A stretch of DNA of 64,000 nucleotides from Sulfurospirillum oryzae (GTDB lineage: Bacteria > Campylobacterota > Campylobacteria > Campylobacterales > Sulfurospirillaceae), in contig NZ_JANZKZ010000006.1 of assembly GCF_025770725.1 (NCBI RefSeq), positions 1-64,000 on the forward strand, written 5' to 3'. The notes beneath the pieces were generated by a model that saw nothing but the letters and a program-made list of their open reading frames with translations, did no database searches and was not told the origin of the DNA. Below are positions 2,515 to 63,288 of this stretch, in pieces. Position 1 is the first letter of the stretch; every line of letters starts with the position of its first letter. The translations under genes were made by a program, and so were the position numbers.

Positions 2515-3369
2515 ATGATTTATGAGCACGAGATACCCACGGGAAGTAAGCTTTATTTTGGAGAGAGTGCCAAGTTAAAGCGCAAGCTTGAAAATGTGGC
2601 CAGTGAACTTTTTTACGATGCAGGTTTTGAAGAGATTGTAACACCCTTTTTCTCCTATCATCAACACCAAAGCATTGATGAAAAAGAGTTGTTGCGTTTT
2701 TCAGATGAACAAAATCATATTGTCTCTCTAAGAGCTGATAGTACGATGGACGTGGTTCGTTTAAGCACCAAAAGGGTTGGTCGAAGTACCAATCATTCTA
2801 AATGGTTTTACATCCAGCCCGTTTTTCGCTATCCAAGTCATGAAGTGCATCAAATTGGTGCCGAGCTTATTGGCGAAGAGAATTTGAGCTTGAGTATTGC
2901 GACGAGCTTGTCCATCTTTGAGAAGTTTTCACTTAAACCACTTTTACATGTAAGCAATATTAATATCCCTAAAATCCTCTCTGAGATGCTGAGTTTAGAC
3001 CTCAAAATCTTTGAAAAAGGGGAGCTTCAAAAGCTTTTGGCACTTGATATTCCATGGCTTACAAAGCTCACCTGTTTGCAAACACTCGACGAGCTTGAAG
3101 CAGTTATTAAAGAGGTTCCTGATGTGCTTAAAGTTGAGCTTGAAAAGCTGAAAACTCTTTCTGCTCATATTACTTATGATAATGTTGTCTTTTCACCGCT
3201 TTACTATGTGAAAATGCGCTATTATAATGCACTGTTTTTTAGATTTATTCATAAAAATTATACACTGGGTGTGGGTGGAAGTTATGACTGCGAGGGCATT
3301 GGCTCAAGTGGTTTTGGTCTTTACACCGATGATTTGATCGAAATACTAATTAAAAGAGATGGACAATAA
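2515..3369 (+). CDS. hisZ: HisZ-like ATP phosphoribosyltransferase regulatory subunit
   Basis: 284 residues with a class II aminoacyl-tRNA-synthetase-like fold: N-terminal IPTGSKLYF, the class II motif [19 protein letters not shown] near residue 100, and a C-terminal GGSYDCEG segment. HisZ proteins are paralogues of HisRS that lack tRNA ligase activity and activate short-form HisG in histidine synthesis. This copy is shorter than the usual 320-400 residues. hisG is not in the window. C. jejuni, which has a similar gene next to purA, uses a long-form HisG as far as I recall, so the partner here is uncertain. The stop lies 1 nt before the purA start. Confidence 0.75.
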
Positions 3370-3370
3370 A

Positions 3371-4618
3371 ATGAAAGCTGATATGATCGTAGGAATTCAA
3401 TGGGGTGATGAGGGTAAAGGCAAGATCGTTGATCTTTTAGCGCAGGATTACGATGTTGTATGCCGTTATCAAGGTGGTCACAACGCAGGTCATACGATCT
3501 GGGTTGATGGTGTACGTTATGCACTTCACTTGATTCCCTCCGGTATTTTAAATCCAAAAGCACTGAATGTCATTGGTAATGGTGTAGTTGTTTCCCCTGA
3601 AGCTCTCATTAAAGAGATGGCGCAGTTTGATAAACTAGAAGGTCGTCTTTTTGTGAGCGATAAAGCGCACATGATTCTTAATCATCACATTTTAATTGAC
3701 CAAGCCAAAGAAAAACTACGAGGGGCTAAAGCCATTGGTACAACAGGACGTGGCATTGGACCAAGTTATGGTAGTAAAATAGAGCGTAGTGGACACCGTT
3801 TGGGAGAGCTTCGCGATACCAATAAGCTCGCTCTTGCTTTGGTTGAATTTTACGATGAGAACAGAGCACTTTTCAGTGCACTTGGTATTGTAACCCCTAA
3901 TTTTGAAACATTGAAAAAAGAGTTAGATAGCTATGCAAAAGTACTTTTACCGTTTTTAACGGACACGACACACATGGTGTGGAGATGTTTGGATGAAAAC
4001 AAAAAAGTATTGTTAGAAGGTGCTCAAGGAACAATGCTCGATATCGATCATGGAACCTATCCGTTTGTAACCAGTTCAAATACTATTAGTGCGGGTGCAT
4101 GTGTAGGGCTTGGTCTTAATCCAAAAGATATTGGTAAAGTAACGGGCATTGTAAAAGCGTATTGTACCCGTGTGGGTAATGGTCCATTTCCTACGGAAGA
4201 TTTTGGAGCTGAGGGTGATCAACTACGTGAAAAAGGGCATGAATACGGCACTTCAACAGGTCGTGCGCGCCGTTGCGGTTGGTTTGATGCAGTTGCTTGT
4301 CGTTATGCGAGCCGTATAAATGGATGTGATGATCTTTCCATTATGAAACTTGATGTTCTAGATGGCTTTGAAACCATTAAAGTCTGTGTTGCCTATGAAG
4401 TGAACGGCCAAAGAGTCGAGACATTGCCTGAAGATTTGGATAATGTTAAACCAATCTATGAAGAACTTCCAGGTTGGGAAAGTGTTGTGGGATGTCGTAA
4501 ATTTGAAGATTTACCTGACTCTGCAAAAGCGTATCTTAAGCGCCTTGAGGTGTTAACAGGAACTAAAATAGGACTCATTTCTACCAGCCCAGATAGGAAC
4601 GATACCATTATTCTATAA
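3371..4618 (+). CDS. purA: adenylosuccinate synthetase
   Basis: Catalyses IMP + Asp + GTP to adenylosuccinate, the first committed step to AMP. I chose the ATG at 3371 (415 aa, [18 protein letters not shown]) over an in-frame ATG at 3359 that lies inside hisZ, because it matches the usual N-terminus and length. The GTP loop GDEGKGK (12-18), the GGHNAGHT segment, TTGRGIGP and the C-terminal GLISTSPDR block are intact. Position after hisZ and before the FliJ-like gene matches C. jejuni. Confidence 0.97.
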
Positions 4619-4643
4619 TCTTTACATGTAAAGGTGTGAACGC

Positions 4644-61185: not shown

Positions 61186-61209
61186 AGAGGCTAAATTTTT
61201 GTAGCCTCT
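61186..61209 (-). terminator. terminator of phoU-regulator-kinase operon
   Basis: AGAGGCTA (61186-61193) / TAGCCTCT (61202-61209), followed on the minus strand by CTTTTC. Confidence 0.7.
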
Positions 61210-61222
61210 TTTGAATGGTGTA

Positions 61223-62623
61223 TCATAATACAGTATTGTTTGAAGGTAATTTAAACGAAAAATCAGATCCTACGCCTAAGCTACTTTGTATCTCAAGGGC
61301 AGTATTGTGAAGTTTGAGAATGTACGTCACAAGAGCGAGTCCTAATCCCATGGAGTTGTCCCACGAATGCGCGTTGGCGCGGTAGAACTTCTGGGTGACT
61401 TTTTCGATCTCTTCAGCCTTAATTCCCACACCGCTGTCTTTTACATGTAAAGCATCATTTTCCAGTGTAACCATGATCGCTTCTTCGGAGTATTTGAGTG
61501 CATTGTCGATGAGGTTGGAGATGACGATCTCCATCATCGTGCGATCAGCCGTGATCATATAGGTCTGCGGAAGCTCACACGAAATAGTGCGCGTAGGGTG
61601 CTTTTCACGAAAACTCTGCACAAGTTCTTGGGTTACTTTGATGATGTCAAAGAGGCTTGTTTGTGCGTTAAAGTCGCCGTTTTCAAACTTGGTTGTCAGG
61701 GTGAGTCGGTCGATCATATTTGAAATTTTCTGTCCATTTTGGACAATTTTTCCTAAAAAACGCTCTCTGATTTGCGGGTTTGCATTGGGATCATCCAGAA
61801 GCGTTTGCGCGTAGCCCATAATGGAAGCGATAGGGTTTTTAAACTCATGGCTAATGGCAGAGATGACATCGCTTCGTTGTTGGGAGATGAGCTTGATTTT
61901 AGCCGTATACTTGCGTTTTTGTTTCGCACGTTTTTCCAACTTGGAGGCTAATTTTTTGAGGTAATTGGCAATTTCAAAAAACTCCAAACTAAAGTGTGAA
62001 GTGATGGTGATTTTATAGTCTTTGTCGGCAATTTGCTGAAGATTTGTAACGATCTTATCGATCTCTTTGCGCACTTTTTGGCTGAAAATATACGTCACAT
62101 AGAGACCCGCTAAAATGCTGAGTGTAAAAATAACAGCGATTTTTACCCATAAGTGGTAAAAGTTGTGCATAATGGTGTCAATGTTGGTGGCAAGGCGCAA
62201 GAAGAAGACTTTATTGTCTCTCTCAAAGCGGTGCGCAACATACAAAAAGTTACTTTTGACAGAGTCTGAGAAACGCACAGAGTGAGCATAGTCAATTTTA
62301 TGGGCTTTGATGATCTCTTCGCGATGAGCGTGGTTATCCATGGTTTCGTTATCTTTGTCACTATCGACTAAAACAACGCCATTTTGATCAATCAATGTCA
62401 CACGAATGCCATAACTCTCTTTGATAACTTTGGCGTAACTTTCAAGGTCATTGATGTAAGGAAGTTGAGCCTGAATAAATTTGATGTGCGTTTCAAGTTC
62501 ACTCTTGTAACGATCAATATTTTCATTTTTAATTGTAAAGTAACTGACCAAACCAGAAAGACACAGCGTGCCCAAAAAAAGGGCAAGAAGGGCTCTTGTA
62601 ATGTGTTGATGGAGCATTAGCAT
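61223..62623 (-). CDS. PhoR-like sensor histidine kinase
   Basis: 466 aa. TM1 (about 10-32), periplasmic sensor (about 33-155), TM2 (about 160-180), HAMP-like linker, HisKA with H259 (AISHEFKNPIASIMGY), HATPase boxes NLIDNALKYSEEA, DSGVGI and GLGLALVTYIL. It overlaps the response regulator by 7 nt and lacks a clear ribosome binding site, so translation is probably coupled. In C. jejuni the PhosS/PhosR pair controls phosphate genes; equivalence is inferred from phoU linkage. Confidence 0.9.
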   Translation of the reverse strand: MLMLHQHITRALLALFLGTLCLSGLVSYFTIKNENIDRYKSELETHIKFIQAQLPYINDLESYAKVIKESYGIRVTLIDQNGVVLVDSDKDNETMDNHAHREEIIKAHKIDYAHSVRFSDSVKSNFLYVAHRFERDNKVFFLRLATNIDTIMHNFYHLWVKIAVIFTLSILAGLYVTYIFSQKVRKEIDKIVTNLQQIADKDYKITITSHFSLEFFEIANYLKKLASKLEKRAKQKRKYTAKIKLISQQRSDVISAISHEFKNPIASIMGYAQTLLDDPNANPQIRERFLGKIVQNGQKISNMIDRLTLTTKFENGDFNAQTSLFDIIKVTQELVQSFREKHPTRTISCELPQTYMITADRTMMEIVISNLIDNALKYSEEAIMVTLENDALHVKDSGVGIKAEEIEKVTQKFYRANAHSWDNSMGLGLALVTYILKLHNTALEIQSSLGVGSDFSFKLPSNNTVL

Positions 62624-63288
62624 AGGCTATATCCTACGCCCCAAATAGATTTGATGTACTCTTTTTCTTTGGTTGGGTCGATCTTTTGTTTCAGGCGGTT
62701 GATGGCGACATTGACCGTCTTGTCTTGAAAAAATTCATCATTTTTCCAGACATGCTCGAGTAGAAACTCGCGGCTTAAAACAGCGCTTTTATTTTCAATC
62801 ATCGTGCGAAGCAAATCAAACTCTAATTTGGTGAGTTCAACCTCTTTAGTGTTTACATGTAAACGGTGCGCGTCTAGGTCTAACACAAGGTCTCGATAGG
62901 AGAGCATGTTGTTATTGGCAGGTGCGGTGCGAGAGAGAATCGCTTTGATGCGAAGCAAAAGCTCTTTCATATTGTAAGGTTTGGTGACGTAGTCGTCGCA
63001 TCCGCGTAGAAAACCCTCTTCAATGTGCGTATCGCTGTCTTTGGCTGTAACAAAGATAACCGCTTGCATAAAGCCCTTTTTGCGCAGGGCTTCAACAAAC
63101 TCACTTCCCTCAACACCGGGTAAGTTTCGATCAACAATCAGAAGATCAATAGGCTCTTCTTGAAGGCACTTTTCAACATTTTTAGTGCTTAAAAAGCCCA
63201 GCGTTTCATAACCCTCTTTTTGAAGGTGATACTCCAAAAGTTCAAGCAAGTCTTCTTCGTCTTCAATAATTAAAATAGTCTGCTTCAT
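62617..63288 (-). CDS. PhoB/OmpR-family response regulator
   Basis: 223 aa. Receiver with acidic pair EDEED (9-13), phospho-acceptor D53 (LIVDRNLPG) and VTKPYN lysine; C-terminal winged helix (LTKLEFDLLRTMIENKSAVLSREFLLEHVW, VNVAINRLKQKID, SIWGVGYSLC). The palindrome at 62853 is read LHVN. Cognate of the downstream kinase. Confidence 0.93.
   Translation of the reverse strand: MKQTILIIEDEEDLLELLEYHLQKEGYETLGFLSTKNVEKCLQEEPIDLLIVDRNLPGVEGSEFVEALRKKGFMQAVIFVTAKDSDTHIEEGFLRGCDDYVTKPYNMKELLLRIKAILSRTAPANNNMLSYRDLVLDLDAHRLHVNTKEVELTKLEFDLLRTMIENKSAVLSREFLLEHVWKNDEFFQDKTVNVAINRLKQKIDPTKEKEYIKSIWGVGYSLC

Follow-up and report, generated by a model that had tools for sequence, protein, structure and literature searches.

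A ten-letter palindrome, TTACATGTAA, is present in about 1,000 exact copies on the chromosome of Sulfurospirillum oryzae and seems to be kept there by selection. Its enrichment is real and genome-wide. The role that we favour, that of a palindromic self-DNA tag acting like a DNA-uptake sequence, is suggested by the placement and distribution of the sites and is a serious candidate, although we put it somewhat short of an even chance; the main rival is a methylation-linked use resembling that of HIP1 in cyanobacteria. What highly iterated palindromes are for has been an open question ever since HIP1 was described in 1995 (PMC4390886; papers given by PMC number are cited throughout from excerpts). 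No report of the word in these bacteria was found among the matches listed from the open-access literature, the exact motif string led to no paper on the subject by title, and the excerpts of PMC4687349 and PMC8112702 make no mention of it. Here is a second lineage, unrelated to cyanobacteria, with a highly iterated palindrome and dialects. Relatives that keep, shift or lack the word, one of them close (about 90% protein identity in a sample) and almost without it, offer a comparative setting for finding the reader and for separating uptake, methylation and nucleoid hypotheses.

Abundance of the word

The window, the whole stretch of 64,000 nt that was analysed, contains 34 exact TTACATGTAA sites between 2944 and 62862, against 0.11 expected under a third-order Markov model, which upholds both the count in the earlier note and its view that expectation is far exceeded. 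Nineteen of the 34 are part of the longer TTTACATGTAAA, and the window holds 36 copies of TACATGTA and 43 of ACATGT; an Rfam scan of it at the gathering threshold gave no match. Across the 2.63 Mb of the genome there are 1,056 copies of TTACATGTAA and three of a reversed-pattern control. In the 2.46 Mb covered by our expectation-based and gene-context counts, 1,006 copies were observed against 3.85 expected (approximately 260-fold, same model), and the runner-up palindromic 10-mer reached 79 copies against 42.8. A genome-wide count near Markov expectation, named in the earlier note as grounds for abandoning the idea of a highly iterated palindrome in the style of HIP1, was looked for and not seen, and that description stands. 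Representation of the word (Rep) is 142, 0.80 and -0.36 at zero, one and two mismatches, the one-mismatch forms showing a 33% gain and the two-mismatch forms being under-represented. Around the sites there is a symmetric base preference, CTTTACATGTAAAG, which fades outwards, and flank conservation ends after a few bases.

Placement relative to genes

With genes called by a simple longest-ORF rule, 20 of the sites in the window are intragenic and 14 intergenic; many sites do lie in gaps, as noted before, although the earlier figure was 13. Those inside genes are found in the carbamoyl-phosphate synthase small subunit gene (6741-6750), an addB-like gene (15700-15709, 16037-16046, 16694-16703 and 17269-17278), a RecB-like helicase gene (18643-18652 and 19831-19840) and at 2944-2953, 24064-24073, 24800-24809, 25104-25113, 30108-30117, 31674-31683, 32006-32015, 33913-33922, 50873-50882, 55392-55401, 60851-60860, 61441-61450 and 62853-62862. 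Between genes, one site follows a stop codon by 3 bp (4622-4631) and another by 4 bp (55909-55918), one has a stop on one side and the next start on the other (58787-58796), one stands immediately ahead of a minus-strand ORF start (52534-52543), and those at 27435-27444, 40637-40646 and 45658-45667 occupy convergent gaps. Further intergenic sites are at 23045-23054, 30665-30674, 35915-35924, 48086-48095 and 54509-54518, while the two at 43621-43630 and 44029-44038 are intergenic by the longest-ORF call and fall within a shorter TTG ORF (43498-44196). The 20 coding sites use frame 0 (14 sites) and frame 1 (six), so the claim that only two frames are used is right for the window; genome-wide, however, the third frame accounts for 19 of 666 coding sites. 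The peptides LHVK/LHVN, previously credited to 15 proteins, were recounted at 11 sites in 10 proteins, the remaining three frame-0 sites encoding LHVS, LHVR and LHVT.

By the same call, 337 of the 1,006 sites in 2.46 Mb are intergenic, though 92% of bases are coding. Density is 4,005 sites per Mb in convergent gaps, 1,603 in tandem gaps, 1,079 in divergent gaps and 294 in coding DNA. Distances from an intergenic site to a flanking stop codon are below 10 bp in 134 of 370 cases, and those to a flanking start codon in 28 of 300. Neighbouring pairs 12-25 bp apart number 24, against 10.9 expected and a maximum of 19 in 100 simulations, a test of closeness and place, since any two copies of a palindrome are mutually inverted by nature; 13 of the 24 are in convergent gaps. 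Close copies form hairpin pairs, several of them with extra complementary bases between the two. Spacing is underdispersed in counting windows of at least 36.5% GC, with variance/mean ratios of 0.82, 0.71 and 0.66 at 5, 10 and 20 kb (null means 1.12-1.14; none of 200 simulations as low), and low-GC stretches are nearly devoid of sites, eight windows below 33% GC averaging 0.5 per 10 kb against 4.1 overall. No convincing bias towards genome-maintenance genes was found among 2,260 genes, the addB-like gene with its four sites having a nominal p of 0.0055 in that set.

Distribution and dialects in relatives

In a survey of 397 Campylobacterota genomes, 25 have at least 100 copies and 364 no more than 11, and presence of the word is patchy within genera. 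Word-rich relatives have the core TACATGTA in common and differ in its flanks as dialects: TCTACATGTAGA is the commonest form in G330 (13 of 25 among the sites listed), G209 uses TTACATGTCA and G186 has loose flanks. Over 33.8 kb of orthologue alignment, the motif-rich G209 keeps 10 of 21 site positions at 76% DNA identity, against 11.6% of control decamers. Poor conservation of positions, which the earlier note would have taken as a refutation, is not what this comparison gave, though conservation is uneven (one 20-kb stretch keeps nine of its 13 sites, another stretch one of its eight). The close relative G146, nearly without the word and with sampled proteins 90% identical to those of this genome, has none of 15 sites exact over 45.7 kb of alignment. 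Samples of 60 kb from G146 and of 40 kb each from G061 and G163, all motif-poor, showed no replacement word. Two named loci with both a methylase homologue and the motif (L188 and L249) are labelled Sulfurospirillum sp. Among the viral-contig matches to the 14-mer that were listed, ORFs near multi-copy sites had no match in this genome at E 1e-3.

A proposed tag for self-DNA

On the reading that we favour, TTACATGTAA, mostly inside TTTACATGTAAA, would be one of the dialects of a palindromic word spread over the genome, with the core TACATGTA, kept by selection or molecular drive on the genome and presumably lost by G146. DUS and USS have a large intergenic share, are evenly spaced and are scarce in foreign DNA. 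We counted in favour of an uptake role the enrichment, the intergenic and convergent bias, the closeness to stop codons, the close pairs, the even spacing, the scarcity at low GC, the dialects, the conservation in G209 and the presence in the genome of a Cts-like gene cluster ('Cts' by likeness of gene content) with a ComEC-family protein. Counted against it are the competence-type genes of motif-poor genomes, the failure to find a receptor, the sharp fall from exact to mismatched forms, the unevenness in G209 and the missing bias towards genome-maintenance genes, which is a DUS trait. The palindromic nature of the word also counts against it, uptake sequences being, to our knowledge, not palindromic.

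Like DUS and USS, the word is an exact one of about 10 bp with dialects around a common core (PMC3630211; PMC5217627), over-represented genome-wide in its exact form, and its close pairs near gene ends recall the inverted DUS pairs of DUS-bearing Neisseriaceae genomes (PMC3630211) and the paired USS in Haemophilus influenzae terminators (PMC5217627). Its copies are fewer than the DUS counts in PMC3630211. Over-representation declines gradually over mismatched forms of known uptake sequences (PMC1939737), unlike the profile found here, and the drop from exact to mismatched forms is 177-fold as against the 92- and 82-fold reported for H. influenzae and Neisseria gonorrhoeae. However, one-mismatch scarcity as a mark against DUS is softened by the Neisseriaceae dialect kingDUS, whose gain at one mismatch is just 21% (PMC3630211). 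A further point held against an uptake role is the argument, made for HIP1, that it would leave the need of methylases for viability unexplained (PMC4390886).

Could the competence machinery account for the patchy distribution? Pilin-like genes occur in this genome, in rich relatives and in the poor G146 and G061 (competence and pilin searches used eight of 13 joined proteins), and Cts-like genes occur in motif-poor and motif-rich genomes alike (in a search with three of six joined proteins). Presence of a competence-type machine is therefore unsupported as the cause of patchiness, and since G146 retains a ComEC-family protein, a ComF-like protein and six of six tested pilin-like proteins, its near-lack of the word is not explained by their loss. 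Most of the distribution data agree with the uptake or self-recognition option of the earlier note, but the analysis found neither the reader protein of the word nor a DNA-binding receptor.

More tentatively, the word might belong to an uptake or self-recognition system of Campylobacterota, as a palindromic dialect word that a Cts-like competence machine reads, perhaps only when its central CATG carries adenine methylation, which would make it a bridge between the sequence-based DUS systems and the methylation-based discrimination practised by Campylobacter jejuni. For this species, DNA has to be methylated at the palindrome RAATTY to be imported (PMC10046745), and adenine methylation of the central CATG may similarly aid reading in the genus studied here, although RAATTY in the CtsM system is a short degenerate site, unlike our word. 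No report of natural transformation of the genus appeared among the matches listed; if the uptake reading is true, adding the word to DNA may ease transformation of these bacteria.

Methylation and the comparison with HIP1

According to the chief rival to an uptake-type tag, which is possible if on the unlikely side, this is a HIP1-like word whose centre is marked by a D12 methylase, and it is in replication, repair or gene control, instead of uptake, that the methylated or hemimethylated sites are used. The genome does encode a D12 methylase (PF02086, from a motif scan that can miss types); as judged from ORF starts only, none of the neighbouring genes is an obvious restriction gene. A PDB sequence search with the protein gave no match at 0.001. 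To judge from related sequences, this adenine methylase is probably CATG-specific: in G015 its homologue (53% identical) and a gene of the ICEA family (PF05315, E 3e-79) lie one short ORF apart. The endonuclease NlaIII cleaves CATG. IceA1 is 52% identical to NlaIII (PMC2749054), and hpyIM is termed CATG-specific in a title cited by the same paper. The word resembles HIP1 (GCGATCGC) in its palindromic core of 8 bp, which some genomes extend palindromically, in a density of hundreds of sites per Mb, in the variant words that relatives use and in an associated adenine methylase fitting the 4-bp centre, probably CATG here and GATC in cyanobacteria, where a putative matching methylase is found in all word-bearing genomes (PMC4390886). 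It differs in base composition, being AT-rich and the cyanobacterial words GC-rich, in its phylum, in its strong preference for gene ends and close pairs, in that several word-rich genomes have no D12 methylase, and in that no MutL was found.

Site density tracks a close homologue within the genus g1, in which 10 genomes with one (at least 62% identity) have 401-499 sites per Mb and the five others 19-389; one of these five, G209, has a 55% homologue elsewhere. Among 61 genomes (70 minus nine without a core count, eight motif-rich with a homologue and one motif-poor without), a homologue at 49% identity or more is present in 14 of 26 rich and four of 35 poor ones (Fisher p 0.0004, ancestry ignored and threshold chosen post hoc). 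However, a survey of the D12 family found it absent from the motif-rich G239, G182, G350, G165 and G129, so the methylase is not necessary as a general reader, and it is not sufficient either, given the four motif-poor carriers and the 56 homologue-bearing loci outside Campylobacterota, which have seven cores against 5.1 expected, no enrichment. Within Campylobacterota, 13 of 24 such loci lack the core in their flanks, and the conserved bases flanking the centre would lie beyond the reach of a CATG methylase alone. The methylase-target option raised in the earlier note consequently has only partial support, from the tracking of site density within the genus. A strand signal for mismatch repair was set aside: the search for MutL detected it in 11 of 14 controls and in none of 20 genomes, which makes methyl-directed mismatch repair unlikely.

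Other explanations

That an abundant dimeric DNA-binding protein folds or tracks the chromosome through some 1,000 evenly spread sites is improbable. The symmetric preference weakening outwards is what a dimer would give, and the even spacing agrees with it. Nevertheless, known organising palindromes such as matS, parS and Noc sites come in tens of position-biased copies, not a thousand, patchiness within genera and near-absence from so similar a relative would be odd for basic architecture, and such a role does not predict that convergent gaps and close pairs should be favoured. That the word is a palindromic counterpart of Chi, read by the recombination enzyme AddAB, is very unlikely, even though the addB-like and RecB-like helicase genes in the window together contain six copies and site density is of the order familiar for Chi. 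Chi, a non-palindromic, strand-biased RecBCD/AddAB signal, is read in one orientation, whereas TTACATGTAA is its own reverse complement and cannot encode orientation; the earlier note had also judged a directional function less likely. An operator of a global transcription regulator, also suggested there, would suit the palindromic form but is highly improbable with about 1,000 sites, two thirds of them intragenic, and with promoter-bearing divergent gaps the thinnest and convergent gaps the densest among gaps, which leaves it unsupported. Chance, codon bias and a small family of mobile elements can practically be dismissed as sources of the word, given the excess over Markov expectation and the occurrence of sites outside genes as well as in two reading frames; flank conservation limited to a few bases shows that the sites are not copies of an element.

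Abundance and form of the word

The iterated palindrome of the earlier note, described as 34 exact sites in 64 kb, is confirmed: the palindromic 10-mer TTACATGTAA (hereafter the word) occurs 34 times in the window against 0.11 expected under a third-order Markov model, 19 of these copies extend to the 12-mer TTTACATGTAAA, and a longest-ORF gene call places 20 sites in genes and 14 between them. Genome-wide, the count likewise lies far above the Markov model that the note had named as yardstick, with 1,006 copies vs 3.85 expected in 2.46 Mb, where the runner-up palindromic 10-mer has 79 copies vs 42.8 expected; the whole 2.63-Mb genome (11 contigs) holds 1,056 copies vs three of the reversed control. 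It is close to certain that TTACATGTAA is a selected genome-wide word. Within the window, the AddB-like and RecB-like helicase genes (15040-20108) carry six copies within 5 kb, the AddB-like gene having four (nominal p 0.0055, among 2,260 genes).

Among 168 copies in 464 kb, changed forms at inner positions are near chance and the outermost position is slightly tolerant, while T stands next outwards in 72% of copies and C beyond it in 46%, which extends the word to the 14-mer CTTTACATGTAAAG. One-mismatch forms number 335 vs 121 expected in the 2.46-Mb set, an excess made up mostly of CTACATGTAA (117), GTACATGTAA (40) and TGACATGTAA (36). By the measure of PMC1939737, over-representation at zero, one and two mismatches is 142, 0.80 and -0.36, the first drop (177-fold) being sharper than the 92- and 82-fold of two uptake sequences in the excerpted text of that paper; allowing one mismatch adds 33%, compared with 21% for one Neisseriaceae dialect (excerpt of PMC3630211).

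Placement and spacing

By the longest-ORF call (2.46 Mb), coding sequence takes up 92% of bases, yet only 666 of the 1,006 sites fall in genes; 337 are intergenic and three straddle a gene edge. Sites are densest in convergent gaps, at 4,005 per Mb, followed by tandem gaps (1,603) and divergent gaps (1,079), and sparsest in genes (294), where the three reading frames hold 427, 220 and 19 sites. Intergenic sites lie less than 10 bp from a stop codon in 134 of 370 flanking distances and from a start codon in 28 of 300. Neighbours 12-25 bp apart form 24 pairs, 13 of them in convergent gaps, vs 10.9 in a class-matched simulation (maximum 19 in 100 runs), which gives no excess for wider pairs (15 vs 18.6 at 26-50 bp, 19 vs 30.0 at 51-100 bp). 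The bases between the copies are complementary in several close pairs (e.g. TTTACATGTAAGGATTTTTCCTTACATGTAAA), but since no regular T run was seen in the few bases following these pairs, these are not termed terminators.

Spacing is even: where window GC content is 36.5% or more, variance/mean is 0.82, 0.71 and 0.66 at 5, 10 and 20 kb vs null means of 1.12-1.14, with none of 200 simulations as low, and the effect is weaker at 40 kb (0.76 vs 1.11, p 0.035). Windows below 33% GC (n=8) average 0.5 sites per 10 kb vs 4.1 overall, and the five longest word-free stretches measure 22.5-29.8 kb at 30-35% GC. Word-free stretches of 23-30 kb at this GC, on contigs C1 (12249-42027), C4 (1-28606), C2 (351106-376691) and C6 (109523-132577), are perhaps acquired DNA.

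Distribution, dialects and turnover

Across 397 Campylobacterota genomes, the present one included and themselves a sample of a larger group, the word occurs at least 100 times in 25, 15-96 times in eight and at most 11 times in 364, the reversed control never exceeding nine. The 25 rich genomes comprise 14 of 15 from the genus, five of seven from other genera of the family and six from elsewhere. Dialects came to light through counts of the 8-bp core TACATGTA, which in 80 chosen genomes reaches at least 91 copies in 26 and at most 61 in 54; G146, G340 and G231 are weak (109, 113 and 91, with controls of 50, 49 and 21). Genome G330 has 379 cores yet only 15 copies of the word, its dialect TCTACATGTAGA making up 13 of 25 sites among the matches listed, and its congener G061 is at chance (28 vs control 25). 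In G186, 347 of the 848 cores take the form YTACATGTAR, and the word occurs 96 times. An asymmetric form, TTACATGTCA, reaches 311 copies in G209 (control 1), 112 in G350, 48 in G182, 41 in G186 and 37 in the present genome. In L025 and the G209 genome this shifted form partly occupies positions where the present genome has the palindrome; G209 may be in transition between word forms.

Conservation of position between relatives, by which the earlier note would have judged its signature, exceeds control in motif-rich G209, albeit unevenly: 10 of 21 sites are exact vs 11.6% of controls (33.8 kb, 75.7% identity), 9/13 in one stretch and 1/8 in the other, and six further sites are one base off, four of them as TTACATGTC. 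Motif-poor G146, with a median protein identity of 90% to the present genome (44 shared proteins, 60-kb sample), has only 49 copies. None of 15 sites is exact there (45.7-kb DNA alignment, 81.5% identity) vs 17.4% of control decamers, a deficit that alone is not significant. Positions thus appear to be conserved where lineages keep the word, but not in G146; because the other congeners of G146 carry the word, this genome has probably lost it.

Two copies of CTTTACATGTAAAG or more occur, among the matches listed, on viral contigs L274, L318, L289, L333, L266, L326 and L272; in the first four, two lie 130-145 bp apart outside called ORFs, and L274 and L318 share identical ORFs around the pair.

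Possible function

Gene-end and close-pair preference, even spacing, fixed-core dialects, scarcity in low-GC DNA and turnover between species together liken the word most to an uptake or self-recognition sequence, a reading that we put forward tentatively. A palindromic, perhaps methylated, uptake tag is plausible in these genomes by analogy with C. jejuni, of the same phylum, which takes up DNA only when its RAATTY palindromes are methylated (excerpt of PMC10046745). When the open literature was searched by exact string and by topic, no prior report of the word in these bacteria appeared among the matches listed, as far as the retrieved text goes; it is new within the class of highly iterated words, neither a proven DUS nor a HIP1 member.

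The present genome has a ComEC-family protein (PF03772) and a cluster named Cts-like after its gene content (T2SSE, T2SSF, secretin, PilO-like and AAA proteins). At least two of three queried cluster proteins are present in 29 of 33 genomes, 12 motif-poor ones included; motif-poor G207, G336, G011 and G041 give secretin matches only, and G146 retains a ComEC-family protein, six pilin-like proteins and a ComF-like protein (below the Pfam cut-off). Gene presence therefore does not account for the patchiness; receptor sequence might. A second, divergent Cts-like AAA and secretin set was found in G195 (C23), G330 (C28), G061 (C1:862-874 kb), G357 (C40), G129 (C1:425 kb) and G010 (C14), with adjoining pilin-like matches in G330 and G061.

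A HIP-like, methylation-linked use of the word, whose palindromy and methylase association resemble HIP1, is less likely than uptake but is the main rival reading. The lead is a D12 adenine methylase (PF02086) at C3:196220-197197, identified by Pfam and a motif scan that can miss types, with no obvious restriction gene beside it as judged from the starts of neighbouring ORFs. CATG is its likely target by association: a 53% identical homologue in G015, a genome at chance for the word, lies one short ORF from an ICEA-family gene (PF05315; L153:2767-3432), IceA1 shares 52% identity with NlaIII, and hpyIM is termed CATG-specific in a cited title (both from an excerpt of PMC2749054). Genomes of the genus with a close homologue (at least 62% identity, n=10) have 401-499 sites/Mb, those without (n=5, including G209 with a 55% homologue) 19-389. 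A homologue of at least 49% occurs in 14 of 26 rich and four of 35 poor genomes (61 counted in both searches; p 0.0004, ignoring ancestry and scoring G335, at 39%, as lacking one). A causal role is disfavoured by five rich genomes that lack the D12 family (G239, G182, G350, G165 and G129). Moreover, among the best 80 contig loci with a homologue, at least 24 are Campylobacterota by title and hold 65 cores vs 4.4 expected, but 13 of these 24 have no core and seven are enriched; the other 56 hold seven vs 5.1, none enriched.

Nucleoid organisation is unlikely. The mismatch-repair function proposed for HIP1 (excerpt of PMC4390886) is spoken against by the finding of MutL (PF01119) in none of 20 genomes, vs 11 of 14 controls.

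Motif-poor G146 encodes three proteins side by side (L023:6978-11882): a 678-aa fused C5/D12 methylase, an HNH protein and another protein of the D12 type. Near the D12 gene of G109, the beginning of an ORF (L145:2-679) appears to resemble that of a Cas9 protein.
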